Shown one piece after another: positions 2,541-21,060 of a DNA stretch of 61,587 nucleotides. How positions within the stretch are numbered: the first letter of the stretch is position 1; the number at the start of each line of letters is the position of its first letter. This DNA is from a virus. The notes beneath the pieces are model-generated. The model was not told the DNA's origin, ran no database searches, and saw only the letters and a program-made list of their open reading frames with translations. The stretch is from IMG/VR virus record IMGVR_UViG_3300043395_002060, positions 1 to 61,587 of that record; one strand, 5' to 3'. The position numbers and the translations under genes were made by a program.

Positions 2541-2541
2541 A

Positions 2542-4344: not shown

Positions 4345-5568
4345 TTATGATTTACTTAAATAATTTTTAGCAGATAGTAAAGTATTTAATTTACCTTTTA
4401 TAGCTTTAAATGCTGGAATATTTACAGGACCAGTTGATGTTGGCCCACAAGGAGTAGCATATACTTGCTTTGTTATTTCATCTATTAACTCTCCCATTAA
4501 TTTTACTAATTCACCACCCAATACCATCTTTTGTACATCCGCACCAGCTCCTCCCTCACCTTTGTTTTTTCCTAAATAAACTTTACCATTTTCGGAATTA
4601 AGGAATATCTGATTAGCTCCTTTGGAATGAATGGTTACGTTATTATTGGTATGTAGGTAAATATCTTTTGCAGCATCTATTGAATATTGTCCATCAGTTA
4701 TAACACCGGTATTACCTTTACCAAATATGATAAATTCTTTTGCTTTAGCTGATAGTATTATTCTATCCGAATTTACCCAAAGTTGGTCACCACTCAAATC
4801 TTTTGAGTTTGGGTAATTTTTGAATGCTTTTTTTTCCTTTTTAATTGTTTCTTTGAATGGAACTTTTATTTTATTAGATGTAATATAGATTGATGTACCA
4901 TCTTTATTAATATCTTCTTCAACCAAAGTACCAATTGGTTTTAAATCCAATTCAGGGTTTTGCTTATTACGAATGAATATACCGGAAGATGCTGTTTTAC
5001 CATCTTCTGTTAAAAAGAATTCGGAAAATCTAATTGTATTACCAACTCTACCCTGAATAATAGTATCTCCTTCTTTTGGTTTTAAAAATTTAATTTTTTC
5101 ATTTACCTTATATTCATTCTTATCATCTTTCTTTTTATCAGAACTTTGTCCACCCGTTTTTGCAGTGTTTGCCATAGATGAACCACCACCACCGCCTTCT
5201 GCTTTAACACCATCTACTAATTCTGTATTTTTATAAGTAATATAATCTCTTCTATATGAAGTGTATGGACTGATTGTATATGGAAGCCAAAATATATTAT
5301 TTTCATCAATTTCCATTATAATTACAGTCTCTCCTTTAATTGGCATTGTAAAATTATTCTTATCGAATGGATAAGCATAATATTCGGTAGTCATACCTTC
5401 ATAATGAAATGTTATAGCACCATAGAATCTGGCATCCTTATCTCCAAAATCCTCATTCTTATTATAAATTGGAATATAATCGGATTCCTCACCTTTTTTA
5501 TAAGGTAGTAAATCATCCGTTATTGGATAAACAGTGTGTACAGTTGCTAAAAAAGATTTTATCTCCAT
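4345..5568 (-). CDS. Baseplate spike / hub protein, gp5-VgrG-like without a lysozyme domain
   Basis: 407 residues. The N-terminal ~130 residues form a beta-rich part with GEVIIMEIDENN-type strands, as in the OB fold of gp5/VgrG proteins. A Gly/Ser-rich linker (GGGGSS) follows. A second beta-rich domain (GDTIIQGRVGNTIRF) leads into a repetitive C-terminal part with short strands such as DAAKDIYLHTNNNVTIHSKG and NQIFLNSENGKVYLGKN, which resembles the triple-stranded beta-helix needle of tail spikes. No lysozyme motif is visible, unlike T4 gp5. It would puncture the outer membrane at the tail tip. It overlaps the upstream 135-residue gene by one base (TAATG). Confidence 0.75.
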   Translation of the reverse strand: MEIKSFLATVHTVYPITDDLLPYKKGEESDYIPIYNKNEDFGDKDARFYGAITFHYEGMTTEYYAYPFDKNNFTMPIKGETVIIMEIDENNIFWLPYTISPYTSYRRDYITYKNTELVDGVKAEGGGGGSSMANTAKTGGQSSDKKKDDKNEYKVNEKIKFLKPKEGDTIIQGRVGNTIRFSEFFLTEDGKTASSGIFIRNKQNPELDLKPIGTLVEEDINKDGTSIYITSNKIKVPFKETIKKEKKAFKNYPNSKDLSGDQLWVNSDRIILSAKAKEFIIFGKGNTGVITDGQYSIDAAKDIYLHTNNNVTIHSKGANQIFLNSENGKVYLGKNKGEGGAGADVQKMVLGGELVKLMGELIDEITKQVYATPCGPTSTGPVNIPAFKAIKGKLNTLLSAKNYLSKS

Positions 5569-5975
5569 TACTTTACTTTTTCTTTTATCTCTTCGATTTC
5601 AATTTGAATATCGGTTAGTTTTTCATCTGCTTTTTTTTCAACCTCACTAATAGTATCTTCCAAATCAGTTAATAATTGAGCTTTTTCACTTTCACTTAAC
5701 CAACCATCTTCTCCAATACCCTTAGCTTCAGCTGCTGCTAATCTTTGTGCAATTGTTGCAAGTTTAATTAAGTGGTCATCATTTTTAATTGATGCATCAA
5801 TAAGGTCTTTGATAATTGGAGCAATAACAGTTGCTTCACCAACATTTTTAATTAATTTACGAAGAGATTCAATCATTTCTGAAATATTCTTCTTTTTGTT
5901 TTGTTGGTTTTCATATATATCTTTAAACAATGATGATAGATTTTTACCATCAAATAATTGAAATTCGTTTGCCAT
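5568..5975 (-). CDS. Hypothetical coiled-coil protein
   Basis: 135 residues, highly charged, with predicted helical heptads over most of its length, especially the C-terminal LEDTISEVEKKADEKLTDIQ region. No family recognised. It is linked by one-base overlaps (TAATG) to the spike gene downstream and the SGNH gene upstream. It could be a chaperone or tail-associated helical protein; nothing in the sequence decides this. Confidence 0.75.
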   Translation of the reverse strand: MANEFQLFDGKNLSSLFKDIYENQQNKKKNISEMIESLRKLIKNVGEATVIAPIIKDLIDASIKNDDHLIKLATIAQRLAAAEAKGIGEDGWLSESEKAQLLTDLEDTISEVEKKADEKLTDIQIEIEEIKEKVK

Positions 5976-6751
5976 TATATTAATTTGTTTCCTACTATAT
6001 AATTATAAAGTTCTTCACTTATTAGTTTATAACCATCTTTATTAGGGTGTTGTGTTGCTCTAGTATCATATGTAGCATCTTGATATTCCCAAATATCCAA
6101 TCTATTTGTTTTAATTAGAAATTCTCTAAAAGTTTGTTTATTAAATTTCCAATAATAAGTTTTATCTATATTATCGGTAACATCATCTTTTTTATGTAAA
6201 TCAATAAGCATGTTTTCAATACTATCACACATTACATATTTTATGTTATATGATTCAAACAATTTTTGTAAAAAAATTATATAATTTTGATTAACAATAT
6301 TATAATAATTTTGATTAAACAATTCTGCTATAAAAAGATTTTTAAAATCTATTAAGAAATCGTTGTATTTATCATTGTTACTTCTAAATGAGTTTACAAA
6401 TTTTTCCGGCGTTTGTATTAAATGTTTGACACTCCAACTAACCCATTCTCCTTTTGGTAAAAACGGGACATAATCTCTTAAAGATGAACTCCACATAACA
6501 ACAACTAAATCATCTTCTCTTATTCTACCATCTTGCACATCAGTTACAATTTGATTAAATATTTTATTATTAGCATTTCCACTAATACCATTATTGTGAT
6601 GCGATACACCCAATTTATCAGCTAAATACTTTGGCCAAGAATGATTGTTTCTGAATAATCTCTTATCATCTCTATCGGTTAGGGTTCTTTCTATTTCTAT
6701 TTCTGCTCCTTCACCTTCTGTCCAACTACATCCGTATGTGTGTAAAATCAT
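5975..6751 (-). CDS. SGNH/GDSL-hydrolase-like protein
   Basis: 258 residues with the SGNH blocks in order: block I as YGCSWTEGEG (6-15) with the nucleophile Ser in GCSWTEG, block II/III as NNGISGNANNKI, and block V as HPNKDGYKLI near the C-terminus. Family members are serine esterases or acyl hydrolases, often acting on glycan acetyl groups. Its ATG overlaps the carbamoyltransferase stop (ATGA), so the two are translationally coupled, which suggests a shared substrate such as a surface or virion glycan. That link is inference. A second SGNH-like protein lies at 21110-21742. Confidence 0.8.
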   Translation of the reverse strand: MILHTYGCSWTEGEGAEIEIERTLTDRDDKRLFRNNHSWPKYLADKLGVSHHNNGISGNANNKIFNQIVTDVQDGRIREDDLVVVMWSSSLRDYVPFLPKGEWVSWSVKHLIQTPEKFVNSFRSNNDKYNDFLIDFKNLFIAELFNQNYYNIVNQNYIIFLQKLFESYNIKYVMCDSIENMLIDLHKKDDVTDNIDKTYYWKFNKQTFREFLIKTNRLDIWEYQDATYDTRATQHPNKDGYKLISEELYNYIVGNKLI

Positions 6752-8445
6752 GCTTTTTTAATTAAATAATTACCTAATACCAAATAATCCATATCACAAT
6801 TTTTGAATGTCCAAATTGCTTTATGTGGGTCATTTGTCATCGTATGTCCTCTTAAATTAAATGATGTATTTAATAAAATGGGAGTGCCACTTATCTTTTC
6901 AAATTCTTTTAATAATGTATGATATAATGGATTTTGTTCTTTTCTAACAGTTTGAATTCTTGCTGAATTATCAACGTGAGTTACTGATGGAATACTTTTA
7001 TATTTGGTAACTTGCACCACTTGATTCATATATGGAACTTCTCCTTCTGAACTAAAATATTTTGTATAATCTTCAATTGTTACCGATGGAGCAAATGGTC
7101 TAAACATTTCTCGTTTCTTAACAACTCTATTAATTCTATCCCTTACATCAGGTAAATGTGGGTTGGCTAATATAGAACGATTGCCTAAAGCTCTTGCACC
7201 AAATTCGGTTCTACCTTGAAACCATCCAACAACTGCTCCATCATTTATTAATTGCGCAACTTCTTTACATAATTTAGAATCATTTTTAATTAATTCTATT
7301 TTTAGTTTTTTATGTTTAGAAATAATATCAAACAATTTAGAATCATTCCATTCCGGTCCTAAATATGGAGATTGGTTATCTCCATTTGGTTTTTTATTAT
7401 GACCTAATACATTATGATATTGATATAGACAAGCGCCAATAGCAGAACCGGCATCGGATGGTGCAGGTGGAATCCATACATTTTTAACCGCCGAATGTTT
7501 CATAATTTTACCATTAGCAGTTCCATTATATGCACAACCACCACTCAATACTAAATTGTGATTATTAGATTGATGAATACAATGATTCACTAAAAAATAA
7601 AATTGAGATTCATACCATCTTTGTAAAGCCGCTGCTAAATCCATATGATGTTGTTCTATATCGGATTCAGGCGTACGTGGTTCGAATCCAATTAGATTGG
7701 CAAGTTTGATATTAAACATAGTTTTATCCGAATATTCCCATTCAAATAAACTCATATTGATATTAATCAATTTTTCAAAATCCAATGATGATATTTTTTC
7801 AAATACATCTCTATATTTCATATAATCACCATATGGTGCTAATCCCATTACTTTATATTCACCACCATTTGGTTTGAAACCCAAATATGCAGTTATAGCT
7901 GAATATACTAATCCCAATGAGTGTGGAAACTTTAATGATTTTATAAATCTGAATTCATTGTTATCACAGCTAACCGCATACATCGTATCCCATTCTCCAA
8001 CACCATCAATTGATATCGCTACCGATTCATCGTATGGTGATGTATAGTGTGCATAAGCTATATGAGAAAGATGATGCTTTGTATAGGTTATAACTCCATT
8101 ATATCCAATCATTTTTAATTTGTTTTGAATATCACCTTCGGTTTCAGCCCATCTTTTTTTAAATTCTTTCCATTGCTTTGGATATCTAAATCCAAACCAT
8201 TTACCAACGGTCTTTTTAACTCTATCGTATTTTACATCGGGTTCTTCATACCAACATACCATATCAACTTCATCTATTGTGATATGCGCATACTCTAATA
8301 CCCACTCTATTGCCTTAAACGGAAAAGAACTATCGTGCTTAATGCCCGATAGTTTCTCTTCTTCTATTGCTGCTACAACCTTACCATCTATAACTAAAGC
8401 TGCTGCTGAATCGTGGTAAAATCCCGATAATCCTAATTGAATCAT
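6748..8445 (-). CDS. Carbamoyltransferase, NodU/CmcH/TobZ family
   Basis: 565 residues, full length for the family. The N-terminal YrdC/Kae1-like part has LGLSGFYHDSAAAL (4-17), the metal/ATP-binding H-L-S-H (125-128) and SIDGVGEWD, then SGGCAYNGTANGK. The C-terminal part has GWFQGRTEFGARALGNRSI and MFRPFAPSV. The enzymes make carbamoyl-adenylate from carbamoyl phosphate and ATP and transfer the carbamoyl group to a hydroxyl. Known acceptors include Nod factors, antibiotics and, in phages, 5-hydroxymethylcytosine in DNA. No hydroxymethylase is visible in this window, so the acceptor here is unknown. The gene is coupled to the SGNH gene downstream and follows the sigma-factor gene by three bases. 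Confidence 0.92.
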   Translation of the reverse strand: MIQLGLSGFYHDSAAALVIDGKVVAAIEEEKLSGIKHDSSFPFKAIEWVLEYAHITIDEVDMVCWYEEPDVKYDRVKKTVGKWFGFRYPKQWKEFKKRWAETEGDIQNKLKMIGYNGVITYTKHHLSHIAYAHYTSPYDESVAISIDGVGEWDTMYAVSCDNNEFRFIKSLKFPHSLGLVYSAITAYLGFKPNGGEYKVMGLAPYGDYMKYRDVFEKISSLDFEKLININMSLFEWEYSDKTMFNIKLANLIGFEPRTPESDIEQHHMDLAAALQRWYESQFYFLVNHCIHQSNNHNLVLSGGCAYNGTANGKIMKHSAVKNVWIPPAPSDAGSAIGACLYQYHNVLGHNKKPNGDNQSPYLGPEWNDSKLFDIISKHKKLKIELIKNDSKLCKEVAQLINDGAVVGWFQGRTEFGARALGNRSILANPHLPDVRDRINRVVKKREMFRPFAPSVTIEDYTKYFSSEGEVPYMNQVVQVTKYKSIPSVTHVDNSARIQTVRKEQNPLYHTLLKEFEKISGTPILLNTSFNLRGHTMTNDPHKAIWTFKNCDMDYLVLGNYLIKKA

Positions 8446-9138: not shown

Positions 9139-9382
9139 TTTCGTTAAAATCTTTGAATTGAATGATTGTGTTACTTATTTGATTAAATAAAGAACCTACT
9201 TCATCATCCTTCTCAAACATTTGTGCATTATCAATTTTGCGCAAAGTCTCCAGTAATGTTTGGTTATTAATTTCTTGCTCTTCTATAAACTCTTCGTATT
9301 TTTCTAATTTATTAAATAAATTAACTATTGTATAACCAGCTGCTATCAATAATACGATTAAAAAAATAATTATAATTTCCAT
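9131..9382 (-). CDS. Small membrane-anchored coiled-coil protein
   Basis: 83 residues. Residues 1-21 form one hydrophobic helix (MEIIIIFLIVLLIAAGYTIV), followed by a charged helical segment (NKLEKYEEFIEEQEINNQTL). Orientation is probably cytoplasmic C-terminus. Function unknown. It overlaps the sigma-factor gene by eight bases and lies one base from the deformylase gene, so it is part of that operon. Confidence 0.75.
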   Translation of the reverse strand: MEIIIIFLIVLLIAAGYTIVNLFNKLEKYEEFIEEQEINNQTLLETLRKIDNAQMFEKDDEVGSLFNQISNTIIQFKDFNENA

Positions 9383-9383
9383 A

Positions 9384-10022
9384 TTAAGCTATTTCATATC
9401 CTTGTAAATAATATTTATTGGCGTTCTTATATTTAATCTCCACCAACTCTCCTTCAGGCGATTTCATTACAATTTTATCATTTCTACCATAAGATTGCTT
9501 TTTAACAATTTGAGTAGAATAAACTCTATCCTTAATAGTAATTCCATCTAAATGGTCAATCTCATGCTGAGCGATTACAGTCAACATTGTTTCATCCGAA
9601 ATCTGACCATCCAACTCTCTATCCTTTTCTGGGTTTACACTAAATGTAATTTCTCCCAAATTATCAGTTTGGACAGTAATTGATGTTGAACGAATTGTTC
9701 TCAATGGTTTTTCAACAGTTTTTGGAATTGATAAACATCCTTCATAAAATAAAAACCCTTCATTAGAACGATTTACAATTGTAGGGTTTAAAAGGTATAA
9801 TTCAGTATCATTATATTTGATAACACATGCTCTTTTATTTAAACCTAATTGATTTGCTGATAGCCCCAATCCACCCATTCCTTCCAATGCGGCAAATAAT
9901 GTTTTTTGTAAAATATCCGATTCCATTTGATTTAGTTCGGATTTTGGAACGGGATTTTTAAGATGTTTGTTAAAATCGGGATTTGGCATTCCTGTTGATG
10001 TTCTGTCTGTAATTAATTTCAT
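9384..10022 (-). CDS. def: Peptide deformylase
   Basis: 212 residues with all three deformylase motifs: GLGLSANQ (51-58, motif 1), EGCLS (94-98, metal-ligand Cys in motif 2) and QHEIDHLDG (152-160, motif 3 with two His ligands and the catalytic Glu). It removes the formyl group from nascent N-terminal Met. Phage deformylases are well known in marine T4-like phages, where they are thought to keep translation products maturing late in infection. All catalytic residues are present, so it should be active. Confidence 0.95.
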   Translation of the reverse strand: MKLITDRTSTGMPNPDFNKHLKNPVPKSELNQMESDILQKTLFAALEGMGGLGLSANQLGLNKRACVIKYNDTELYLLNPTIVNRSNEGFLFYEGCLSIPKTVEKPLRTIRSTSITVQTDNLGEITFSVNPEKDRELDGQISDETMLTVIAQHEIDHLDGITIKDRVYSTQIVKKQSYGRNDKIVMKSPEGELVEIKYKNANKYYLQGYEIA

Positions 10023-10036
10023 AACTTTATTTGTAA

Positions 10037-10156
10037 TTAAAATAATAATTCATATACTACTACTCCCAATAATGAGATTAAAGCTCCAATAATTCCTATT
10101 GATGCTAAATCATATGAATCTTTCATTTGTTGTTTTGTTTTTCCTTGATTTTCCAT
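10037..10156 (-). CDS. Small single-helix membrane protein
   Basis: 39 codons starting MENQGKTKQQMKDSYDLASI, with a hydrophobic segment (residues 18-34) and a short tail. It fills the gap between the UV endonuclease gene and the deformylase gene. Start ATG is one base from the upstream stop. Function unknown. Confidence 0.6.
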   Translation of the reverse strand: MENQGKTKQQMKDSYDLASIGIIGALISLLGVVVYELLF

Positions 10157-10157
10157 T

Positions 10158-11033
10158 TTATTTAATAAAAGGTAATATTGCTAATTCTTTTGCTTTTGCT
10201 TCTACCATAATATCAACTTTGTGTCGATATGTGTTTGGTAATTGTTTGATATAATCCGAATGTGCTTGTGGTTTAGCTCCTTCTTTGGATTCCGAATAGT
10301 GAACAACCGGCGTAACACCGCTTTTTCTCCAAGTACTTGCTGCTAATAACAATGCTTGTTGTTCTGATAATCCACCATCGCAGAATTTGTGATGATGATA
10401 ATCGAAAACAATTGGAATGCCAATTTTATTGTGAATATACATTAAATCCGATACAGAATACATAGATGCTTTATCATCATTCTCAATTGTTAATCGTTTT
10501 TGAACCGATGGAGATAATCTTTTAAAGTTTTCACAAAATCTATCCATTGCTGCTATTTTATCTCCATAAACTCCATTACAATGAATATTAATCTTATTGT
10601 ATGGAGTTTTAGATAAACCCATCATATCAAAAACCTTACCATGTAATTCCAAGTCAGCAATAGTTTTAGTTACAACTGCTTCGTTTGGTGAAACTAATAC
10701 GTTAAATGGACCTGGATGTGATGTAATACGAATATTATGAAATTTAGCGAAATCACCTGCTTTTTTGAGTTCTGATTTGATTTCCTTATAATCTTTAAGA
10801 GTAGTAATATCGATACTATCGCCCCACGGAATTATGCCAGATGATAAACGAAAGAAATAGATATCATTTTGTCTATTCCATTCTAATATTTTGATAATAT
10901 CCTTTGCATTCGCTAATGCAAGTTCGGAAACATAGTCTAAACCTTTAATGTTTAGAGTCTTTTTAACCATTGTACGATTAGTGGTAACTTTCTTACCAAT
11001 AGTCATATTAATACAAGCGTATCCTAAATTCAT
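10158..11033 (-). CDS. uvsE: UV-damage endonuclease (UvsE/UVDE family)
   Basis: 291 residues from the chosen start (MNLGYACINM). The TIM-barrel family motifs are present: FFRLSSGIIPWGD, RITSHPGPFNVLVSP, KINIHCNGVYGDK, LTIENDDKA and IVFDYHHHKF, giving the metal-binding His/Glu/Asp set. The enzyme nicks DNA 5' to UV photoproducts and starts repair. An upstream in-frame ATG at 11069 is unlikely because the promoter -7 element lies at 11059-11066; the start at 11033 leaves a leader of about 22 bases. It is the first gene of the operon that runs into the deformylase and sigma genes. Confidence 0.92.
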   Translation of the reverse strand: MNLGYACINMTIGKKVTTNRTMVKKTLNIKGLDYVSELALANAKDIIKILEWNRQNDIYFFRLSSGIIPWGDSIDITTLKDYKEIKSELKKAGDFAKFHNIRITSHPGPFNVLVSPNEAVVTKTIADLELHGKVFDMMGLSKTPYNKINIHCNGVYGDKIAAMDRFCENFKRLSPSVQKRLTIENDDKASMYSVSDLMYIHNKIGIPIVFDYHHHKFCDGGLSEQQALLLAASTWRKSGVTPVVHYSESKEGAKPQAHSDYIKQLPNTYRHKVDIMVEAKAKELAILPFIK

Positions 11034-11058
11034 ATTGTATATTTTAGATTTTAATAAA

Positions 11059-11090
11059 CAAATATACAAAAAATAATTTAAAAAACCAAA
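11059..11090 (-). promoter_or_regulatory. Bacteroidota-type promoter of the uvsE operon
   Basis: Reading the minus strand: TTTGG (11086-11090), 20 bases between TTG and the -7 box, then TATATTTG (11059-11066). This matches the -33 TTG / -7 TANNTTTG promoter type of Bacteroidota exactly. Confidence 0.8.
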
Positions 11091-11093
11091 TTA

Positions 11094-12176
11094 TTAATAG
11101 GTTTTTATAGAATCTGTTTTAGATTCCTCTTCAAGTCTGATTTTGTTGAATTCTCTGATTGTTCCGTTTTTGTTATTTATCCAATATTGAACGGCTTTTG
11201 GGTTATTTATCCAAATTGCTTTGTTATCCCACGGAAAATCGGGATGCATGTAATCTTCCCATTTTAGATTTAAATTATTTTCCACCAATTCTTCATTTTT
11301 TTCTTCAATTGGTAAATTTTTTCCACTATATTCGATATTTTGTGAAATATTTTCCACTAAATCCTCTTTTTTATCACCATAAACTTCATATAGCCCCAAT
11401 TTTTGGTCATCTTCCATCATTTTGGTTAAAATCTCTCTTTGTTTCTTTTTTTTATCATCAATCAAACCATTGAAAGCGATAATTAAAGCAACCGCTAATG
11501 GGTCAAACACAATTACAATCAAAAATATGAAAAATTTCACTACATTTTTCAATTCCATACCAAATGCTTCGGCAACAAATCGGAATCCACCAACTTCTTT
11601 CTCTAAATCTAAATTTTTTAATTTAATTTCGTTGATTTTTTCGGTATTTTGAGCGTTTTCGGCTTGTAATTTTTCAATTTGTGAGTTAATTTTTGTAGTT
11701 TGGCGGTCTTTACTGTCAATACTACGCAGTAAACGGCTATTTACTCTACCCTTATCGATTATTTGTGATTGAGTTTGTTGTAAATTTGATAATTGTGTAG
11801 TAAATTGATTAATTTGTTGCTCGTTTGTAGTAATTTTAGTTTGATAAACCGCGATTTCTCTATCTACAACTTGCAATTTAAGCGATTGTGCCTGAAAAGC
11901 ATTTGAAAGATATCCAAAAATACCTGCTGAAGTGATTAACATTAATAATGCTACGGCTGATGTTAGATACCATTTATTAAATCCGGCAATTTCATCCCAT
12001 TTTTGTTTAAGATATGTAGCTGCTACTAATTTAGCTAATTCCAATGAGGATGCCATTACCATTACGGATACCGATGCTCCTGCAAATAAAACACCCAAAC
12101 CTGTTACGGAAAAGTATGCGGCACATCCAGCAATAACTATTGCCGAAAATCCGACTAATAATTTAAGCCAATTCAT
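11094..12176 (-). CDS. Four-helix membrane protein with long periplasmic or cytoplasmic coiled coil
   Basis: 360 residues. Hydrophobic segments lie near 4-24, 28-48, 70-90 and 212-236. Between helices three and four is a coiled coil (about 95-200) with heptads such as QTKITTNEQQINQFTTQL and NSQIEKLQAENAQNTEK. The C-terminal 120 residues are charged and include KWEDYMHPDFPWDNKAIWI. Family not recognised by name, though proteins of this layout occur in T4-like marine phages. A role in the host envelope, for example lysis timing or exclusion, is only a guess. Confidence 0.8.
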   Translation of the reverse strand: MNWLKLLVGFSAIVIAGCAAYFSVTGLGVLFAGASVSVMVMASSLELAKLVAATYLKQKWDEIAGFNKWYLTSAVALLMLITSAGIFGYLSNAFQAQSLKLQVVDREIAVYQTKITTNEQQINQFTTQLSNLQQTQSQIIDKGRVNSRLLRSIDSKDRQTTKINSQIEKLQAENAQNTEKINEIKLKNLDLEKEVGGFRFVAEAFGMELKNVVKFFIFLIVIVFDPLAVALIIAFNGLIDDKKKKQREILTKMMEDDQKLGLYEVYGDKKEDLVENISQNIEYSGKNLPIEEKNEELVENNLNLKWEDYMHPDFPWDNKAIWINNPKAVQYWINNKNGTIREFNKIRLEEESKTDSIKTY

Positions 12177-12408: not shown

Positions 12409-12440
12409 ATAAGATACGAAAAAAAATTGAATTATCCAAC
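12409..12440 (-). promoter_or_regulatory. Possible promoter nested at the hsp20 terminator
   Basis: TTGG at the hsp20 stop codon, 20 bases, then TATCTTAT (12409-12416), preceded by the CG seen in most promoters here. The -7 box departs from TANNTTTG at two bases. Its start point would fall inside the terminator stem, so transcripts from it could not form that hairpin. Confidence 0.4.
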
Positions 12441-12812
12441 TTTAATTGAGATAGATTTTGCTTTTCTCTCTTCTTTCTTATCGATTGTTAAAATAAGTAA
12501 CCCATTAGAAAATTTAGCTTCTGTTTTAGTTCCATCGTAATCAGCGCCTACACTAAATGTAATATCAATATCTTCTACTAATTTGGAAGTATTTTCTTCT
12601 TTTTTTGCTTTTATTGATACTTCCTCATCGGTAACATATAATTTAATGTTTTTTATATCGTGTCCTAAAACACTAAATGTTGCCTGTAATTTACCATCTT
12701 CCAATACTTTTGCTTCATAGTGAGAAGGTAATTTTTTGTAAGTAGAAAAATCGTTTGTGAAAAACGTTTCAAATAAATTGTCTAAATTAGATAAATTTGC
12801 TGTTGTGTACAT
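12432..12812 (-). CDS. hsp20: Small heat-shock protein (Hsp20/alpha-crystallin)
   Basis: 126 residues with an alpha-crystallin domain: HYEAKVLEDGKLQATFSVLG (N-terminal strands), DEEVSIKAKK, and the family's C-terminal signature FSNGLLILTIDKKEERK followed by an I-x-I-like tail (SISIKV). It is an ATP-independent holdase chaperone. Hsp20 genes are common in T4-like cyanophages. The gene is monocistronic here: its own terminator follows and another terminator precedes it. Confidence 0.92.
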   Translation of the reverse strand: MYTTANLSNLDNLFETFFTNDFSTYKKLPSHYEAKVLEDGKLQATFSVLGHDIKNIKLYVTDEEVSIKAKKEENTSKLVEDIDITFSVGADYDGTKTEAKFSNGLLILTIDKKEERKAKSISIKVG

Positions 12813-12931: not shown

Positions 12932-13579
12932 TTACATTTCATTATCTTGCGATTCGATAACAGTACTCATATGGTCTGCCCAATGCATTATGTAAGGAAT
13001 TTTATATTTCATTCTCTTACTAATATCAAAAACTTTTAAGTATTTCATATTATCTTCATCATATAAACCATCGGTAAGTTTCATACCAAAATATTCTGCT
13101 TCTGAAAATGTTATACCATAATGCTGAAGAACAAATATAGTTCTATCGGTATGTGTCATATGATGTAATTCCGGATTAGATGCAAAAACTTTACCTTGAT
13201 TCTTAATGTGCCATTCTGAAGGATTTGGAATATAGAATGGTTTACCTTTAGTTCCTAATTTACCTAAATCGTGATGTAATGCAACAAATATTAATTCTTC
13301 ATCAGTAAAGTCTGGCTTACCGCCAAGCTGAATAAATAACTCTTTAACTTTAAGAGCATTTTTACAAACATTAAAAATATGGTCAATGTATCCACCTACA
13401 TAGCAATTATGATAACCCGCATTTCCACTAGCTGGAGCAATTGCAAGATTCATACCTAATTCTTCTTCTGAATACATAAAAAGAAGTTTCTCTAACCTAT
13501 CATCTTTAAAATATTTTTTGATGATGGCAATAAATCTCTCGTAGTTGTCTTTCAGTTCTTTTTCTGTCTTTTGTTTCAT
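12932..13579 (-). CDS. HD-domain phosphohydrolase
   Basis: 215 residues. The metal site is seen as GGYIDHIFNV (His67), LHHDLGK (HD at 103-104) and later His residues in HHMTHTDRTIFV. This is the HD superfamily, whose members hydrolyse phosphate esters of nucleotides or nucleic acids. Substrate cannot be read from the sequence; nucleotide-pool control or clearing of a signalling nucleotide are possible. It has its own promoter and terminator. Confidence 0.85.
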   Translation of the reverse strand: MKQKTEKELKDNYERFIAIIKKYFKDDRLEKLLFMYSEEELGMNLAIAPASGNAGYHNCYVGGYIDHIFNVCKNALKVKELFIQLGGKPDFTDEELIFVALHHDLGKLGTKGKPFYIPNPSEWHIKNQGKVFASNPELHHMTHTDRTIFVLQHYGITFSEAEYFGMKLTDGLYDEDNMKYLKVFDISKRMKYKIPYIMHWADHMSTVIESQDNEM

Positions 13580-14061: not shown

Positions 14062-15300
14062 CTATAATAATGATTTATTTGATATTTTAATTCCGTTTCC
14101 AATGATTTCTAAAAAAGAATTTTCATTTTCTATTTTTGATATTAAAGATGTATGGCATTCAATTATCCATTTTTTACATAAATCATAATTGTAATCAAAA
14201 TTTTCTAAAAAATCTTTTACAAATATTGAAAACTTTTTTGCATCTCCTTTGTGATTTACAAATTCATTATAGAACGGATGCGGTGATACGTTTAATATTT
14301 TTTGAATAATATCCAATGGATACGAATGCGTAGATATAAATGGAATTTTCGCCAGTATTAATCCATATGATTTTTCTGAAAGATATTGAGATGTAAAATC
14401 ACCTTTAAACCAAGACCAACTTTCATCTAATATTTGCATTTTTGATAAATTTAAAAATCTAAAAAATACTTCATATTCGACACCCATTTGATAATCCAAT
14501 AATTTTAGATTTTGAAAATCAGATTTACCTTCCAATGTATTTAAATTAATATTTTTAATTTCAGATAATTCTGAATCATATTTATCATAAACTCTATTTT
14601 TAAAAAAACTAGCTCTTTGCAAAAATATATCATCATTATTCAAATATGCCAAATTTTTTAAAATCTCAACCCTATATGGTTTATGCCTTCTAATTGAATA
14701 CATTAATTTATAATCAAAATTTAATTTTTGATAAACCCTACCAAATTCATACCAATATCTAATATTAATTAATTCATTCCACTGCCATAGTGTGTTGGTT
14801 AAAGCAAAGTGGATATTTGGATATGATTTATGTATTTTTTCATTTATAAATAAATTATCCGTTATTATAATATGATTATTTAATTTTGCAATTTGATTTT
14901 CCAAATCAACTATATACGAATCGTTAGTATCTGCTTTATCTAAAATTTTTTCTGTTCTAAACAATGTAATTATCCAACCCGATTTACCTTCTAATAATTT
15001 TATAAATCTTTTTATAAATGGAGTATCTTCGATACCATTACTAACATCTATATCTGAATAGTGTTCGTAAAAATGTCTTTTCCTTAAAGCAGTGAAAAAA
15101 TCCAATAAGTGATAACCATCATCATTATTGTTAAATTCTGGATTAAAAACGAATTCCAAATCAATACTATTATATTTACATTTTACAATACCAATTTTCT
15201 GAAAATTAAAATCGGTTAAATCATATATTCTATCCGTTGTATTATGAGCTAATTTAATAAATAATTCATCCGTAAACCAATGATGTACATAAATTTTCAT
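14062..15300 (-). CDS. SEK-family putative glycosyltransferase (member 1)
   Basis: 412 residues. It shares two signatures with six other proteins here: an R-x-H-K-like patch before a Leu-rich helix (SIRRHKPYRVEILKNLAYL, about 202-220) and YLSEKSYGLILAKIPF (306-321). The S-E-K-[TS]-x(n)-P-F layout recalls the donor-binding loop of fucosyltransferase-type (GT10) GT-B enzymes, but similarity is distant and the call is inference. It ends SNKSLL, matching the C-termini of neighbours. Its start overlaps the stop of the upstream GT-A-like gene (ATGA). Confidence 0.55.
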   Translation of the reverse strand: MKIYVHHWFTDELFIKLAHNTTDRIYDLTDFNFQKIGIVKCKYNSIDLEFVFNPEFNNNDDGYHLLDFFTALRKRHFYEHYSDIDVSNGIEDTPFIKRFIKLLEGKSGWIITLFRTEKILDKADTNDSYIVDLENQIAKLNNHIIITDNLFINEKIHKSYPNIHFALTNTLWQWNELINIRYWYEFGRVYQKLNFDYKLMYSIRRHKPYRVEILKNLAYLNNDDIFLQRASFFKNRVYDKYDSELSEIKNINLNTLEGKSDFQNLKLLDYQMGVEYEVFFRFLNLSKMQILDESWSWFKGDFTSQYLSEKSYGLILAKIPFISTHSYPLDIIQKILNVSPHPFYNEFVNHKGDAKKFSIFVKDFLENFDYNYDLCKKWIIECHTSLISKIENENSFLEIIGNGIKISNKSLL

Positions 15301-16001
15301 ATTAATGAGTTTTCAATTGATAATGGATTTGAATTATATTTTTGCTGTCCTACAAAATGAGTATAATGATAATTTGGCTTACCCAATCTGTTTGATAAAT
15401 TTTGTATTTTATAATTTTTAGAAAGTAATGTTAATAAATATTGAGATGTAATAGTACAACACATATAAAAATATTCCATATTATGTTTATTATCATTACA
15501 AAATTGATACATTTTATACCATCTATCCAAATACAAATCTTTTAATTCGGAATTGTTTATTTTAAGTAATCCAATATTGATTACTCTTTGTGATTTATTT
15601 TCCCATTCTGGTATTATATCGCCTATTCCTAAATATGTCAATTCATTTACGCACTTTGAATATAAATCTATCCAACTTTCCCAACCATCAAAATATAAAT
15701 CTACATCAGAATTAAATTCAGGCAATTTTGAGTGAAATATTATATCACCATCTATCAATACGCCATTATTTTTATCCAATAATGGTAATGTTTTAAACCC
15801 ATCCCAAAAAGTAAAAGTAGTATTTATATAATTTGATACATCAACATATTCATCAAATATATTTGTATTTGTATAAATTTCGGTTGCATGTCCATATTTT
15901 TTAGCAGATTTTATACTATTGATGTAATACGATTTTATTACTTCAAATCTATGGGAATCATCTTTGTGTACATTTTTATCAAAAGTATAAATCAAATTCA
16001 T
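15297..16001 (-). CDS. GT-A-type glycosyltransferase-like protein (copy 1)
   Basis: 234 residues. The D-x-D metal/nucleotide-sugar motif is in GVLIDGDIIFHSKLP (about 79-93), after the N-terminal Rossmann-like part (MNLIYTFDK). A later segment VINIGLLKINNSELKDLY matches the acceptor-side strand of GT8-like folds, and a C-terminal His/Gln (HFVGQQKY) may complete the metal site. It should transfer a sugar from a nucleotide sugar; acceptor unknown. It is a paralogue of the next upstream gene and overlaps it by one base. Confidence 0.7.
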   Translation of the reverse strand: MNLIYTFDKNVHKDDSHRFEVIKSYYINSIKSAKKYGHATEIYTNTNIFDEYVDVSNYINTTFTFWDGFKTLPLLDKNNGVLIDGDIIFHSKLPEFNSDVDLYFDGWESWIDLYSKCVNELTYLGIGDIIPEWENKSQRVINIGLLKINNSELKDLYLDRWYKMYQFCNDNKHNMEYFYMCCTITSQYLLTLLSKNYKIQNLSNRLGKPNYHYTHFVGQQKYNSNPLSIENSLI

Positions 16002-16732
16002 TATATAATACTTTTATTGAAAATTGAATTAACGTGATTAAAAAACTTTTGTTTAAATTTTGTTTCCGATGCATAATGTGTGTAATCATTAAAATCTTTA
16101 CAAAACTTATAAGTTATTCCCTTTGCTTCCATTACTTTTGGAAAATAATATTCACATACAACAATTGATGGGTCGTTCCAATTCGTTAAATTCTCAAATG
16201 GTTCTATATTTTCTAAATAATATTTACGAAATTTATAATATGAATTTATTAAGATATCTTTTGCTGATTGAGAATTAAATTTTAAAATACCAACATTGGA
16301 TGCATGTAACCCATCATAATCGAAATATTCTATGTTAGATGGAACATCGTATTTTTTAAATATATCCATATATCTTTTGAATTTTTTATTTTTAGTATTC
16401 AAAAGTTTTGTCTCAAATAGAACATCGCAATCGTTTGGTAAATTTAATTTTGACTCCAAAATAACATCACCATCAATCGTAACACAATTTAAATCTTCTT
16501 TTGAGTGTATGAATATTTTCAAATCATCGGTAAGTATGAATTCTTCATTTTCAATACTTACAAATTCATCTATATCATCTTTTAGATTTTCATATATGAA
16601 ATCGCAACCATATAATTTTATAGTATAGCCCAATTGTTTTGCTCTACGCATTGCTGCTTTATAGTATATTACCACCCAATCGTTATCGGTATAATTACCC
16701 ATCTTTGTAGTAAAACTATAAATTAATTTCAT
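16001..16732 (-). CDS. GT-A-type glycosyltransferase-like protein (copy 2)
   Basis: 243 residues. Same layout as the neighbouring 234-residue protein: MKLIYSFTTKMGNYTDNDW, a DGD motif in CVTIDGDVILESKLNLP, ASNVGILKFNSQSAKDILIN and a C-terminal His-containing tail (DYTHYASETKFKQ). The two probably arose by tandem duplication and then diverged strongly. The last residues are FNKSII, encoded across the TAATG junction with the following gene. Confidence 0.7.
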   Translation of the reverse strand: MKLIYSFTTKMGNYTDNDWVVIYYKAAMRRAKQLGYTIKLYGCDFIYENLKDDIDEFVSIENEEFILTDDLKIFIHSKEDLNCVTIDGDVILESKLNLPNDCDVLFETKLLNTKNKKFKRYMDIFKKYDVPSNIEYFDYDGLHASNVGILKFNSQSAKDILINSYYKFRKYYLENIEPFENLTNWNDPSIVVCEYYFPKVMEAKGITYKFCKDFNDYTHYASETKFKQKFFNHVNSIFNKSII

Positions 16733-17142
16733 TATATTAGATTAACCTTTTCTTTAGCAAATTTATTTACAGTTTCCCAATATGTACTATCTCCATAATA
16801 TGTACAAACTTCTTCGCCAACTTCTATATCTCTTTGTGCTACAAATTCAAACGTTCTATTTTCTTTATTTGTTCTCCAAAAAGCATTATTATTATCTGAA
16901 TGATTATAGATTGCGCCATATCCCAATGGTATTACATATTCTTCAACTTTACCATGCGATGGAAAATTAAATTTATGATTAACTAAAAAAGAATCAAATG
17001 TTCCCAATTTAAATGGAATAGTTAAAAGATGGCATTCTTCTATTATTTCATCTTTTTTTATTGATTCTATTGTAAATACGCCATATCCATGTATTGGAGA
17101 TGTTCTTACTTCTACTTTAGTTGGGGATTTTAATGTAACCAT
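16732..17142 (-). CDS. SET-domain protein (putative lysine methyltransferase)
   Basis: 136 residues, a minimal SET domain. Visible motifs: HGYGVFT (18-24, SAM-binding), YNHSDNNN (79-86, the N-H-S core that forms the pseudoknot) and GEEVCTYYG (109-117, the E-x-x-x-Y-G segment with catalytic Tyr). There is no pre- or post-SET region. SET enzymes methylate lysines in proteins; the target could be a phage structural or host protein. It is coupled by a one-base overlap to a second SET-like gene. SET genes in phages are rare but known. Confidence 0.85.
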   Translation of the reverse strand: MVTLKSPTKVEVRTSPIHGYGVFTIESIKKDEIIEECHLLTIPFKLGTFDSFLVNHKFNFPSHGKVEEYVIPLGYGAIYNHSDNNNAFWRTNKENRTFEFVAQRDIEVGEEVCTYYGDSTYWETVNKFAKEKVNLI

Positions 17143-17528
17143 TATATTATACTTTTATTAACAACTATTTCTTCATCAATATAATCAAAGTTAAATATTT
17201 CATATGACAAAATCAAACTTTCTGGCAAATTAATCAATTTAACTACACTCAAATAATCAACAGTCAATTCAGTATGCTTTGGAATTATTTGATTAGAATA
17301 TAGTTCAATAATATTTTCGTTTTTGATTAATGTTAAATTTGGATTTTCATTATGATTTAAATATCTACCCAATGGATTCGTTTCAATCCACCCATCATAT
17401 ATAGGTCTACTTTCGGATGTAACCAATTCATTTTTTGTAAAATAAAAACCTATTAATTTGTTAGATGGGATGAATTCGGTTGATATAACACCCGTACCTC
17501 TACTTTTAAAGTTATATAAGGAATACAT
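17142..17528 (-). CDS. Second SET-like protein, more diverged
   Basis: 128 residues. SET motifs are present but altered: SRGTGVIST (9-17), GRYLNHNENPN (54-64, N-H-N in place of N-H-S) and HTELTVDYL (85-93, D-Y in place of Y-G). It may be an active methyltransferase with different specificity or a non-catalytic partner of the adjacent SET protein. It ends VVNKSII. It overlaps genes on both sides by one base. Confidence 0.7.
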   Translation of the reverse strand: MYSLYNFKSRGTGVISTEFIPSNKLIGFYFTKNELVTSESRPIYDGWIETNPLGRYLNHNENPNLTLIKNENIIELYSNQIIPKHTELTVDYLSVVKLINLPESLILSYEIFNFDYIDEEIVVNKSII

Positions 17529-18031
17529 TAAATGATTGATTTAGTCATATTTAAATTTTCTTCTCTTAAAAATAACACCATCGATAATCTTTCGCCTGAT
17601 ATTAATTTTGTAACTTCATGCGGTGTTGTTGGATTTATAATTGATAATGAACCTTGTTCTCTCGACGCAATTTCTTTACCAACTATTAAATCACCGCCTT
17701 CATATTCATTTGAATCACTTAATTGAATTAAATATGTTTTATAGATTATATCAACTCCATACTTTGAAAAATCAGTATGTCGTGCTAAATTATCACCCTT
17801 TTGATAACGCATAAATTTAACCAATGGGATTGATTTAACACCCCATTGGTTTAACTTATTTTCTAAAAATTTGATTAATTCTTCGTTTTTAGTCGAAGTA
17901 TATTTGGCAGATGAATTACTAAATTTTAATTTTACACCACCATAATTCTGAACATCATCCGATGATTCTTCCAAATCGATATTATAAAATCCCTTAATAT
18001 ACTCACACTCATCTTTAGTGAATACAACCAT
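17528..18031 (-). CDS. 2-oxoglutarate/Fe(II) dioxygenase (prolyl-4-hydroxylase type)
   Basis: 167 residues. The iron ligands are H85-x-D87 (ARHTDFS) and H138 (TPHEV), and R148 (SGERLSM) would bind 2-oxoglutarate; the jelly-roll strands include SNEYEGGDLIVG and GSLSIINP. Such enzymes hydroxylate Pro, Lys or other side chains, or nucleic acid bases. In this operon with SET and glycosyltransferase genes, hydroxylation that creates an acceptor for a sugar is an attractive idea, as in collagen-type Lys modification, but it is inference. The last residues are MTKSII. Confidence 0.85.
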   Translation of the reverse strand: MVVFTKDECEYIKGFYNIDLEESSDDVQNYGGVKLKFSNSSAKYTSTKNEELIKFLENKLNQWGVKSIPLVKFMRYQKGDNLARHTDFSKYGVDIIYKTYLIQLSDSNEYEGGDLIVGKEIASREQGSLSIINPTTPHEVTKLISGERLSMVLFLREENLNMTKSII

Positions 18032-18046: not shown

Positions 18047-18184
18047 TTACATATGCTTTGCCTTAAAGTAAGCAATGAAATTAGAAACAATTTCTGAAAT
18101 CTTTTGCTTTTGTGTTGCGGTTGTTGCCGTTACACCCTTATTAGCCAAATCAGCTTTTGTAAAAGTTTTATATACGTTTGCCAT
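18047..18184 (-). CDS. Small hypothetical protein beside the Hint protein
   Basis: 45 residues (MANVYKTFTKADLANKGVTA...), basic, Thr/Ala-rich, probably one or two helices. It starts seven bases after the stop of the 754-residue Hint protein and may be translated with it. No family recognised. Confidence 0.65.
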   Translation of the reverse strand: MANVYKTFTKADLANKGVTATTATQKQKISEIVSNFIAYFKAKHM

Positions 18185-18191: not shown

Positions 18192-20456
18192 TTATTTATT
18201 ATGAACTAATATTCCGTTTGCGTAAAAATTATGGTTATCTTCAACAGTAAAGATATATGTTTGAGTATCCCCTAAATCCATTTCAACAATATCTTTAATA
18301 GCCGTTTGTGATTTTGATTCATTTACAAATACTAAATCACCTACTTTTATTTGTCTAACATCTTTTCCAATATTATATCTACTATTTGTTAAGAATGGAG
18401 CGTAAGATGCTAATTCACCATTTCCACCTGCTACAAAGAATGGGTGGTCATATGTACATATAATTTCAGTTTGATTAGCAAATACATATTTAACCATATC
18501 ATCATGTATTGGAGTTTTTACACCAACAACTTTTTTAGATTCGTTTTCTATTCCGTTAAATGATAATACTTCATCACCAATAACAACATCTTCAATATTC
18601 TTTTCAGAACCATCTGCCATTGTTACTTTAGTTCCGGCTACAAAACAAGAACCTCCACCATATTTAAAATTATGAACCAATATACCTTCTGCAAAATATG
18701 TGTGATTATCTTTAACATCTAAAATGTGATACACTTCCACTTCACCACTCAAATCTTGTCTATCTACAATTACTGATTCTGATTTATCTTTCTTAATTAC
18801 AATATCGCCTTTTAAGATATCTTGCGCTGCTACCCAACCTTTTCCTTTGATATAGAATTTATGTAAAGGAGTTGATTTAACAACTGAACCATCACCTGTT
18901 TCTAATTGAATTAATAAGAATTCTTTTTTCTTTAAAATATTTCCAATAGAACCTTCTGCTAAAACACCTGTTTTTTCGTTGTAAGTTAATAACTTATCAT
19001 CGGTTGTTAAATCTTCAATGTTCTTTTCAGTACCATCTGCTAAAGTAATTTTAGTTCCAGCTGGGAAACAGTTGTGTGTTACAATTTTAACACTTAATTC
19101 ACCATTATATAAGAAGTAAGTATCACTTGATTCAACGTCAATAATGTGAGTATGATAATCTCCATCTAAAATTTCACCAATTACCGATTGGATTTCGACT
19201 ACACCACCATTCAAATTGATAAGTTTGTGTTTGGTTTCATCTATTTCAGAAATAGTTTCGTATCTTAATACATCTTTTTCAATATCATAAATCAATAAGT
19301 GTGCTCCACCCGATGCTCTAAAATCAGAGCCATCTACCATTGTTATGTGAAATATAGTATTATTTGATAATTCTTGCTGAATATTATTTACAACAACTGA
19401 AGATGTTTCATATGAACCTGATGGTAAATCAGAACCACCAAAAGACCATTGCATGAATTCCGAAACAACATCAGTATCAGGCGCACCTTCTATAAAATAA
19501 GATTTCAAAGATGTACCAACCGATGCACTACATATTAATACAGGCGTACCATCTTCTTTAACGATTGATTCCTCTTCAAAAATACCACCCCAGTTATTAA
19601 CAGTTGCAAATTTAGGATAATTAGTTGTTAATTCATAATAATGTTTAATATTTGATTGATTAACAAATTGCTCATCATTAAATTCGATAGATGTTGGTTT
19701 TTCAAATAATCCTTCATTTATAAAGCTACCAAATGTAATTACATCCAAATTAGAACCATAAATAGCATTTACAGAACGAATACTTTTAACTTTAGTATCG
19801 GCAGGATTTTCATAAAACTTTATCAACAAATTATTTTCGGGAAAAGATGCCTTTAAACCATCATATCTCGATACTTCGGATAAATTTGAATATCCTATTT
19901 TGACAAATTTAATAGAACTATTAACGTTTGCGTTTAAATCTTTAACAGCCACATCCGGCATTGTAGATGAATTAAATTCTAATGGTAATATATCAGTAAC
20001 ACCCGTTACAGATGATGAAACATAGTATTCAACAATTGAACCGCTATCTCCATTTGAATTAAATAAATCTAAAGGAGCTAATTTATTTTTTGCATATTCC
20101 GAATCAAAAATAGCTGATTCATCATAAGCCAATCTTAAAATAAATTTATTATCCGAATCAGCAATAGTATTTGGATATATAGTTGTATCTTCTTCTAAAT
20201 GATTTTGAAAAAGAGTTATAAACGATGCATTATCTGCTATACTTTGAGATAAAGCATTTATAAATCCACTTTGAAATGATTTAGATATAGTATGTACTTC
20301 GGTTATAGAATTTTGATTCAATACATCAATAAACGATGTAAAATCTAAATTAGTTAAACCACCCGGCGCTATAGCTGTATCGGTATTTATTTCCATTAAA
20401 CGAAGATTTCCATTAACATCTTCGATGAAATCCATTGAAAAAAGAGTTCCTTTCAT
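18192..20456 (-). CDS. Large protein with tandem C-terminal Hint (intein-like) domains
   Basis: 754 residues. Residues 463-596 are one Hint domain: CFPAGTKITLADGTEKN at its start, the TPLH motif (529-532) and YHILDVKDNHTYFAEG ending in VHN-F. Residues 604-753 are a second: CFVAGTKVTMADGSEKN, TYDH (668-671), ending in VHN-K at the protein C-terminus. Residues about 343-462 look like a third, degenerate Hint: DGSDFRASGGAH aligns with the TPLH region and HIIDVESSDTYFLYNG leads to THN, directly before Cys463. The +1 residues (Phe, Lys) are not splicing nucleophiles, so cleavage or ligation as in bacterial intein-like domains is more likely than classic splicing. The N-terminus (FSMDFIEDVNGNLRLMEINT) resembles the end of an ATP-grasp site. 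The rest is unrecognised and may be structural. Confidence 0.85.
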   Translation of the reverse strand: MKGTLFSMDFIEDVNGNLRLMEINTDTAIAPGGLTNLDFTSFIDVLNQNSITEVHTISKSFQSGFINALSQSIADNASFITLFQNHLEEDTTIYPNTIADSDNKFILRLAYDESAIFDSEYAKNKLAPLDLFNSNGDSGSIVEYYVSSSVTGVTDILPLEFNSSTMPDVAVKDLNANVNSSIKFVKIGYSNLSEVSRYDGLKASFPENNLLIKFYENPADTKVKSIRSVNAIYGSNLDVITFGSFINEGLFEKPTSIEFNDEQFVNQSNIKHYYELTTNYPKFATVNNWGGIFEEESIVKEDGTPVLICSASVGTSLKSYFIEGAPDTDVVSEFMQWSFGGSDLPSGSYETSSVVVNNIQQELSNNTIFHITMVDGSDFRASGGAHLLIYDIEKDVLRYETISEIDETKHKLINLNGGVVEIQSVIGEILDGDYHTHIIDVESSDTYFLYNGELSVKIVTHNCFPAGTKITLADGTEKNIEDLTTDDKLLTYNEKTGVLAEGSIGNILKKKEFLLIQLETGDGSVVKSTPLHKFYIKGKGWVAAQDILKGDIVIKKDKSESVIVDRQDLSGEVEVYHILDVKDNHTYFAEGILVHNFKYGGGSCFVAGTKVTMADGSEKNIEDVVIGDEVLSFNGIENESKKVVGVKTPIHDDMVKYVFANQTEIICTYDHPFFVAGGNGELASYAPFLTNSRYNIGKDVRQIKVGDLVFVNESKSQTAIKDIVEMDLGDTQTYIFTVEDNHNFYANGILVHNK

Positions 20457-20516: not shown

Positions 20517-20747
20517 TTATTCTACTTTATCCCACTTCTTTAAATCACACGTTCCTTTTTTTGGTGTAAATATTTTCTTACCTATCGGACACCCACATTC
20601 ATTACATTTATAAGTAAATACAACGGATTCTACCATAGAATCGCAAGTTGTACATATGGATAATCTTTTTTGAGCAAGTTTATTCTGCTCAAGCGTTGGA
20701 TTGCTCGCTATTTTCCAAGCGGCGTATATTTCTTTTATATCTATCAT
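20517..20747 (-). CDS. Small zinc-ribbon protein
   Basis: 76 residues from MIDIKEIYAAWKIASN. Four-cysteine zinc site: CTTC near the middle and CNECGCPIGKK with a final Cys (GTCDLKKW). An in-frame ATG at 20762 is possible. The gene overlaps the 3' end of the upstream 123-residue gene by 59 bases. Small zinc-ribbon proteins like this occur in many T4-like phages; function unknown. Confidence 0.75.
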   Translation of the reverse strand: MIDIKEIYAAWKIASNPTLEQNKLAQKRLSICTTCDSMVESVVFTYKCNECGCPIGKKIFTPKKGTCDLKKWDKVE

Positions 20748-21060
20748 TTTTCTTCTTTTCAATATATTTCATTATACGAATTATATCTTTACACATTTCA
20801 TACTGCTCCCTATCTATTAGGGTATTCTTTATCCATTCTAAAACTTCGACATATTCTTCTTTAGTAAACATAACATATGCCGGAATTCCTTCGAATCTAA
20901 ACATAATTAGTTCGTTGGCGTTTTTATTTCCCTTAAAATTATCGATTAATGTAATAATTGTTGAAAGGTTATCATTTGATAAATGTACACGATTTACATA
21001 ATCAAACCAATTGAGTCTGATATAGCCCTTTTCTAAAGTTTGTAGGAATTTACTGTTCAT
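20689..21060 (-). CDS. Hypothetical protein with extended 3' overlap
   Basis: 123 residues (MNSKFLQTLEKGYIRLNWFD...), helical second half with a very basic tail (YIEKKKNDRYKRNIRR). Family not recognised. Its last 20 codons overlap the start of the zinc-ribbon gene in another frame. A 9-bp inverted repeat lies just upstream at 21080-21101. Confidence 0.65.
   Translation of the reverse strand: MNSKFLQTLEKGYIRLNWFDYVNRVHLSNDNLSTIITLIDNFKGNKNANELIMFRFEGIPAYVMFTKEEYVEVLEWIKNTLIDREQYEMCKDIIRIMKYIEKKKNDRYKRNIRRLENSEQSNA

Follow-up and report, generated by a model that had tools for sequence, protein, structure and literature searches.

The stretch of DNA analyzed here is a 61.6-kb fragment of a T4-like phage with baseplate proteins present (61,587 nucleotides, IMG/VR record IMGVR_UViG_3300043395_002060; hereafter the window), and its minus strand carries a compact island of six putative modification enzymes. 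All six end in a common C-terminal peptide with the consensus K-[SKTN]-[LI]-[IL], and in related viral loci the same tag marks varying enzymes encoded beside a constant core, namely a probable ATP-grasp protein with predicted self-processing bacterial intein-like (BIL) and Hint domains and a 45-aa partner, m45. The tag and the core pair are well established by computation. An earlier note on this DNA had described six consecutive minus-strand genes with one- to four-base overlaps at 14062-18031, and the open reading frames (ORFs) lie at exactly these coordinates, joined by one 4-base ATGA overlap (15297-15300) and four 1-base TAATG overlaps. The six genes are listed below with the position weight matrix (PWM) score of each tag; GT denotes glycosyltransferase and 2OG denotes 2-oxoglutarate.

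14062-15300, minus strand: E412, 412-aa GT-B-fold glycosyltransferase-like protein, ending NKSLL (tag NKSLL at 14065-14079, minus strand, PWM score 10.3)
15297-16001, minus strand: GT2, 234-aa GT-A-like protein with a DGD motif, ending ENSLI (tag ENSLI at 15300-15314, minus strand, score 7.5)
16001-16732, minus strand: GT1, 243-aa GT-A-like protein with a DGD motif, ending NKSII (tag NKSII at 16004-16018, minus strand, score 9.7)
16732-17142, minus strand: SET1, 136-aa SET-domain lysine methyltransferase-like protein, ending EKVNLI (tag KVNLI at 16735-16749, minus strand, score 8.0)
17142-17528, minus strand: SET2, 128-aa SET-domain protein, ending NKSII (tag NKSII at 17145-17159, minus strand, score 9.7)
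17528-18031, minus strand: 167-aa 2OG-Fe(II) oxygenase, prolyl-hydroxylase-like, ending TKSII (tag TKSII at 17531-17545, minus strand, score 10.0)

The profile used to score the tag spans five positions and was built from six divergent loci, the window and its close kin being left out. When the profile is applied to the 80 ORFs of the window, the six island proteins and one other score (hypergeometric 2e-8); the other ORF lies at 36783-37868 on the minus strand and has the end EKSLLL, with a score of 5.4. Within operons centered on E412, two of I, L or F form the end of 153 of 176 genes; the baseline is 5.7% at positions inside those proteins and 3.4% in core-free AT-rich viral loci. Only 5 of 565 genes in AT-rich viral loci without the core reach a score of at least 4. 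Across 49 distinct held-out loci, the tag rate declines with distance from the ATP-grasp-BIL gene, from 62% at position +1 to 47% at +2/+3 and 9% at nine or more genes away, and the difference between genes near the core and far from it is pronounced (104/264 vs 22/248, p 2e-16). The tag p-values ignore shared ancestry, but shared ancestry does not explain the spread of the tag over unrelated folds. Tagged proteins fall into about 53 sequence families that include at least eight enzyme classes. Pfam names radical SAM, flavin halogenase, FkbM, SET, APS kinase, GSCFA and PhyH families among them, and the sulfotransferase-like families have weaker support than these.

Among 2OG enzymes gathered with a C-terminally clipped profile, 67 of 104 are tagged in core loci and none of 108 outside, which rules out the tag as a family trait of these enzymes. 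Of the SET relatives outside core loci, 0 of 17 are tagged at a score of 5 and one reaches 4.9. The two constant proteins, the ATP-grasp-BIL protein and m45, are untagged. Two large relatives were also sampled elsewhere in their genomes, where the further tagged genes are mostly SGNH-like, 2OG, radical-SAM-like and kinase-type and some 2OG enzymes are untagged. At positions 9178-12110 of locus L226, on a 245-kb contig (G001) whose genome also has a tagged island, adjoining untagged 2OG-type enzymes lie by a tagged SGNH-like gene.

Several observations indicate that the tag is selected at the protein level. Synonymous codons within it follow genome usage, near the core, genes separated from the following one are tagged too (50/143 vs 15/217 far from it), and nearly all other overlapping or coupled genes of the window are untagged. 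Together these rule out the tag as a by-product of overlapping stop and start codons or of a ribosome-binding sequence. In the E412 family, the linker ahead of the tag is more variable and the last residues are conserved; an entropy profile over tagged representatives is circular, these having been chosen by their tag, and its E412-family part is less so. Similar enzymes of the nearest known clusters, in HTVC008M, P-SSM2 and S-SSM6a, lack the tag.

The unit exceeds the six genes. Block comparison across four other contigs (L083, L084, L085 and L003) shows that the ORF for m45 and the adjoining 754-aa Hint gene travel with the enzymes and belong to the unit; the earlier suggestion that the neighboring Hint protein is involved is thus upheld, in that this protein is part of the system. 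The core pair and its predicted domains are as follows.

18047-18184, minus strand: m45, 45-aa ORF, partner of the ATP-grasp-Hint protein, untagged
18192-20456, minus strand: ATP-grasp-BIL-Hint-Hint protein, 754 aa, untagged
19602-20456, minus strand: probable ATP-grasp-like domain, residues 1-285, in permuted order, with D9 and E22-x-N24-T25 N-terminal
19071-19601, minus strand: degenerate BIL/intein-fold domain, residues 286-462, without Cys1, ending in the invariant H461-N462
18669-19070, minus strand: second Hint domain, residues 463-596, from Cys463 to His595-Asn596 (Pfam and alignment)
18648-18668, minus strand: FKYGGGS, residues 597-603, between two predicted self-cleaving domains (alignment)
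18198-18647, minus strand: third Hint domain, residues 604-753, from Cys604 to His752-Asn753, then one Lys (Pfam and alignment)

Relatives of the 754-aa protein give 347 matches in IMG/VR, from which 80 loci of the family were fetched, and the constant part of the family is its first 462 residues. Residues 1-285 probably form a permuted ATP-grasp domain. None of D9, E22, N24, T25, R108, K172 and R227 varies among 21 sequences, the most distant at 20% identity, and Foldseek returns YjfC (2.3e-5), plant glutathione synthetase (6.6e-5) and YgiC within a range of 2e-5 to 3e-4 at a template-modelling (TM) score of about 0.3. Residues 286-462 match the BIL/intein fold (6y75, Z 19.1; 2lwy, Z 18.6), and Pfam assigns Intein_splicing (9.8e-17) and Hint families to the protein. 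The first domain lacks Cys1 and ends in a His-Asn pair, H461-N462, that is invariant among the 21 family sequences; the second and third have Cys1, but the residue that follows the domain is Phe and Lys, respectively, so that none of the three combines Cys1 or Ser with C, S or T at +1 as protein splicing would require. The segment between the last two domains reads FKYGGGS, FKYSGGS or FKYGGGF across relatives and may possibly be released as a peptide. What follows the conserved His-Asn varies across the family: one or two Hint domains, as in the window, a 26-33-aa peptide rich in Cys, Trp and Tyr, or a region rich in Cys that weakly matches the S74 chaperone. The 26-33-aa peptides, which have regular Cys spacing, occur in L113, L115, L116, L118, L121, L122, L127, L136, L216, L218, L220 and L221. 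In nearly all fetched loci, a homologue of m45 (38-55 aa; 67 distinct sequences) is encoded directly downstream of the ATP-grasp-Hint protein; these homologues start with a conserved xYK and close with a helix-like C-terminal stretch, whose last residues are KxKH in most of them, and m45 is 56-73% identical in L003, L084 and L085. Among 50,697 isolate phage records, the ATP-grasp-BIL core is absent apart from generic Hint similarity.

The four contigs with close relatives also show that the island recurs above chance, since the whole gene set is found on them. L085 holds the complete block in the order of the window (ATP-grasp-Hint, 45-aa ORF, 2OG, SET2, SET1, GT1, GT2, E412). L083 has the same order with its first 2OG gene cut off at the contig end and a second 2OG gene present, and L084 and L003 have the complete set with SET1 relocated between GT2 and E412. 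The L003 block is, in addition, inverted among neighbors that are conserved with the window, and a second 2OG gene is added. From this gene-order comparison, the island moves as one block. The earlier note had proposed that the six genes act together and had called for a search for the same gene order in other phage genomes. Their co-occurrence in related phages, the inversion of the block and the shared tag all bear the proposal out, and the absence of conserved co-occurrence that was to refute it is not what we find. Elsewhere, the enzyme set is interchangeable between loci to judge by their gene content, with halogenases, radical SAM, sulfotransferase-like, FkbM and other enzymes in place of those of the window. 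The minimal loci L152, L158, L178 and L181 consist of the ATP-grasp-Hint gene and the 45-aa gene followed by a lone tagged 2OG enzyme.

Of the six island proteins, a Pfam scan finds a match in three, the two SET proteins (SET1, 2e-11; SET2, 5.5e-9) and the 2OG enzyme (PF13640, 2OG-FeII_Oxy_3, 7.7e-8), in agreement with the earlier assignment of two SET proteins and a prolyl-hydroxylase-type oxygenase; the 412-, 234- and 243-aa proteins have none. Both SET proteins have the expected NH(S/N) and Tyr motifs (NHSDNNN/TYYG and LNHNENPN/ELTVDY), and a profile of the two matches PBCV-1 vSET (7.6e-10) and SETD proteins in the PDB. The 2OG enzyme has the iron triad and the 2OG-binding Arg (H85-x-D87, H138 and R148, invariant in six relatives). 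E412 had been labeled a SEK-family protein, which is no recognized family; its AlphaFold model, built from 28 sequences (predicted local distance difference test 87, predicted TM score 0.88), folds as a GT-B-like glycosyltransferase. The Foldseek/VIA matches of the model are nearly all GT-B; residues 1-405 align to SenB, TarM, WaaG and PglA over two Rossmann domains at Z 11-13 (RsSenB, Z 13.1, 298 aligned, root-mean-square deviation 4.6), and the last residues, 406-412, are disordered. The GT-A-like reading of GT1 and GT2 fares less clearly. The two are mutual homologues (22-25% identity) with a D-G-D motif (D87-G88-D89, GT1 numbering) invariant in 15 sequences, which is suggestive of a GT-A-like enzyme; the PDB sequences give no match and Pfam at best a weak one to DUF6734. 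GT1 relatives are 74-77% identical in L083, L084 and L085.

E412 relatives occur in 37 viral loci, with none confirmed in bacterial genomes, and L140 carries three tandem distant E412 paralogues (1508-5312; 411-445 aa) without the remaining island genes. In the isolate phage records, E412, GT1 and SET2 have no match (GT2 was not among the queries), and the sole match of SET1 is in an unannotated 735-kb uncultured phage (LR756501.1, 692213-692551, 45.6% identical).

These features are consistent with a modular phage modification system, a model to which we give an even chance. The island would be its variable part, the ATP-grasp-BIL protein and m45 its constant core, and the interchangeable clients would be modifying enzymes that each carry the four- to five-residue tag; in the window, these would be the 2OG hydroxylase, two SET methyltransferases, two GT-A-like glycosyltransferases and one GT-B-like glycosyltransferase. 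The tag would serve as a docking peptide through which all of the enzymes bind the same receptor; the likeliest receptor is the ATP-grasp-BIL protein or m45. Docking on the core is suggested by the hub-client layout, in which the constant members are untagged and the variable ones tagged. The docked enzymes would then act sequentially on one substrate, with hydroxylation followed by glycosylation, plus lysine methylation. Hydroxylation as the basal step, into which glycosyl, methyl, sulfo or halogen additions would be plugged, fits the minimal loci, where the core is paired with a tagged 2OG enzyme. The earlier note had proposed hydroxylation followed by sugar transfer, and this reading gains partial support, at the level of the genes and from these minimal loci. 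Its broader interpretation holds in that the genes act together; neither the tag nor the ATP-grasp domain, the 45-aa protein or the interchangeability of the enzymes was noticed there. The computed evidence shows that the tag exists, is a protein-level feature and is concentrated in these loci, that there is a core pair and that the cassette is mobile; docking, receptor, substrate, reaction order and autocleavage we infer.

The substrate is the least certain part of the model; it would most likely be either m45 or the tail that cleavage at the conserved His-Asn would free from the ATP-grasp-BIL protein. Genes for flavin halogenase are confined to loci whose post-His-Asn peptide has Trp (8/20 vs 0/43), among them L138, which lies outside the Cys-rich clade, and sulfotransferase-like genes accompany Tyr in that peptide (24/27 vs 12/36). 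Both associations point to the released peptide as the substrate, without proving it. A bolder version, which we consider rather doubtful, is a ribosomal-peptide factory in a large family of uncultured phages, in which BIL/Hint chemistry would free a peptide of the ATP-grasp-BIL protein and exchangeable tailoring enzymes would be recruited by the universal tag.

A number of results weigh against the docking model or its proposed substrates. The Trp/halogenase and Tyr/sulfotransferase links are confounded by clade, with the latter at p 0.04 outside the Cys-rich clade, and FKYGGGS in the window has Tyr yet the window has no sulfotransferase gene. The identity of the ATP-grasp domain stems from conserved residues and modest Foldseek scores, and m45 is conserved along its whole length, with no variable core. 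Some cassette genes are untagged, the core loci L176, L189, L204 and L211 have few or no tagged neighbors, and tags are not clearly more similar within than between loci (p 0.10), as co-evolution of tag and receptor would predict.

The tag might instead be a degradation or localisation signal, such as a degron for a host protease or a signal for membrane, virion or compartment targeting, and not a docking peptide for one substrate. Short hydrophobic peptides at the C-terminus are typical protease and sorting signals, and in two large genomes the same enzyme classes also have lone tagged genes elsewhere, so that co-location with the core is not strictly required. We consider this explanation rather unlikely, since the tag rate drops steeply with distance from the ATP-grasp-BIL gene, the carriers are mostly of one functional class while the constant core is untagged, and the untagged 2OG enzymes in the genome of L226 argue against a general expression feature. 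Decoration of a virion tail fiber, or of a virion-displayed ATP-grasp-BIL protein, for receptor diversification or immune shielding is compatible with docking and is only somewhat unlikely. Cassettes adjoin tail-fiber genes in L136 and L109, the C-terminal part of several ATP-grasp-BIL homologues combines a Cys-rich stretch and a weak match to the S74 chaperone (L114, 7.8e-4; L110, 5.9e-3), the window has T4-like baseplate genes some 12 kb downstream, and work cited in PMC12619734 describes glycosylated mycobacteriophage virions. However, the S74 scores are under the Pfam cut-off, and the window island, like most examined loci, adjoins no recognized fiber gene.

Modification of a polysaccharide or production of a small molecule, with the ATP-grasp domain as an amide-bond former, appears quite unlikely to us. 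Jumbo cyanophage clusters of similar enzymes, among them halogenase, 2OG and carbamoyltransferase genes, are predicted to serve capsule decoration or secondary metabolite synthesis (PMC7824862), and SGNH/GSCFA, FkbM, APS kinase and sulfotransferase-like genes would suit glycans as well. SET domains, in contrast, are known for methylating lysines of proteins, the clusters nearest to ours (S-SSM6a, P-SSM2 and HTVC008M) are untagged, no isolate phage matched the core, and the island has no nucleotide-sugar or polyketide machinery. The pairing of a 2OG oxygenase with glycosyltransferases also follows the logic of base J and phage DNA hypermodification, in which base oxidation precedes glucosylation. 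This we regard as highly improbable, because the 2OG enzyme is prolyl-hydroxylase-like, its Pfam matches at E<=1 being PF13640, Asp_Arg_Hydrox and poxvirus C4 alone with no TET/JBP, and because SET, radical SAM, halogenase and sulfotransferase-like partners would be out of place in such a pathway.

Among described systems, the cluster of jumbo cyanophage S-SSM6a comes closest; its halogenase, 2OG, carbamoyltransferase and glycosyltransferase genes are predicted to act in capsule decoration or to make a halogenated or secondary metabolite (PMC7824862). Like ours, such clusters bring 2OG oxygenases and flavin halogenase together with methylases and sugar enzymes, the phage being large and T4-like, and their content varies among relatives (PMC7824862). 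In contrast, S-SSM6a has no tag on its genes, the ATP-grasp-BIL core had no match in any isolate phage, and the window island has SET proteins; by Pfam, it has none of the halogenase, carbamoyltransferases or HemK-like methylase of the S-SSM6a-type set. The first intein-like domain resembles BIL domains in its fold and C-terminal His-Asn but, without Cys1, would not splice in the standard way, and it is fused behind an ATP-grasp-like domain and followed by variable peptides or more Hint domains. The ATP-grasp-like domain shares the E-x-N-T metal-site motif, conserved Lys/Arg and Foldseek matches with permuted ligases of the glutathione-synthetase/YjfC type, whereas the phage protein is fused to BIL/Hint domains. 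The SET proteins resemble the compact PBCV-1 vSET/SETD family, although here two divergent copies, each tagged, occur in a bacterial-type virus. Clusters for ribosomally synthesized and post-translationally modified peptides (RiPPs) offer a further likeness, with a small ORF by tailoring enzymes (2OG, radical SAM-SPASM, halogenase, ATP-grasp and methyltransferases across relatives) and a self-processing precursor-like protein; the common recognition-like element, however, is on the enzyme C-termini and not on a leader peptide. As for a possible RiPP precursor, nearly all loci have m45, which is however conserved over its full length, and 26-33-aa Cys/Trp-rich tails after His-Asn occur in one clade. 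The peroxisomal targeting signal PTS1 (-SKL) and encapsulin cargo peptides are few-residue C-terminal signals on enzymes of unrelated folds; the tag resembles them by logic only, being different in sequence and phage-borne.

BIL, ATP-grasp, SET, 2OG and GT-B are all known families, and what appears new is their combination and, above all, the shared C-terminal tag, of which we found no description. The literature searched contained nothing relevant on a shared C-terminal motif, on phage proteins with BIL and ATP-grasp domains or on phage RiPPs, an absence that proves little given that subscription papers and preprints were outside its reach. Recently described large aquatic Bacteroidota phages (PMC12619734) may be relatives of the window phage.

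Around the island, a Hsp20-like chaperone and an HD-type phosphohydrolase (12432-12812 and 12932-13579, minus strand) flank it in most close relatives as well. Next to the core, at 20517-20762 on the minus strand, is a small Cys4 zinc-type protein that is tagged in some loci (KKSIL and KKSLI; L110:7106-7432, L115:6120-6407) and untagged in L085. An SGNH-hydrolase-like gene (5975-6751, minus strand), with the end VGNKLI and a tag score of 3.7, slightly below threshold, adjoins a NodU/TobZ-type carbamoyltransferase (6748-8445, minus strand). This pair lies 5.6 kb downstream of the island, is kept in L083-L085 and is possibly a second modification locus. Thirteen tRNA genes occupy 53553-61532 on the minus strand.

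The ATP-grasp-BIL/45-aa pair is a widespread uncharacterised pair, with 347 matches in one collection, that is now open to direct test. Were the peptide-factory reading true, enzymes would be swappable merely by gaining the tag. If the tag docks, it would be a portable recruitment code that makes unrelated enzymes members of one pathway, a principle of organization that we did not find described for phages, and it would explain how phages build ever-changing modification islands. It would also help to search for new modification enzymes and the substrate they act on and, being short and transferable, could be used to construct enzyme assemblies.

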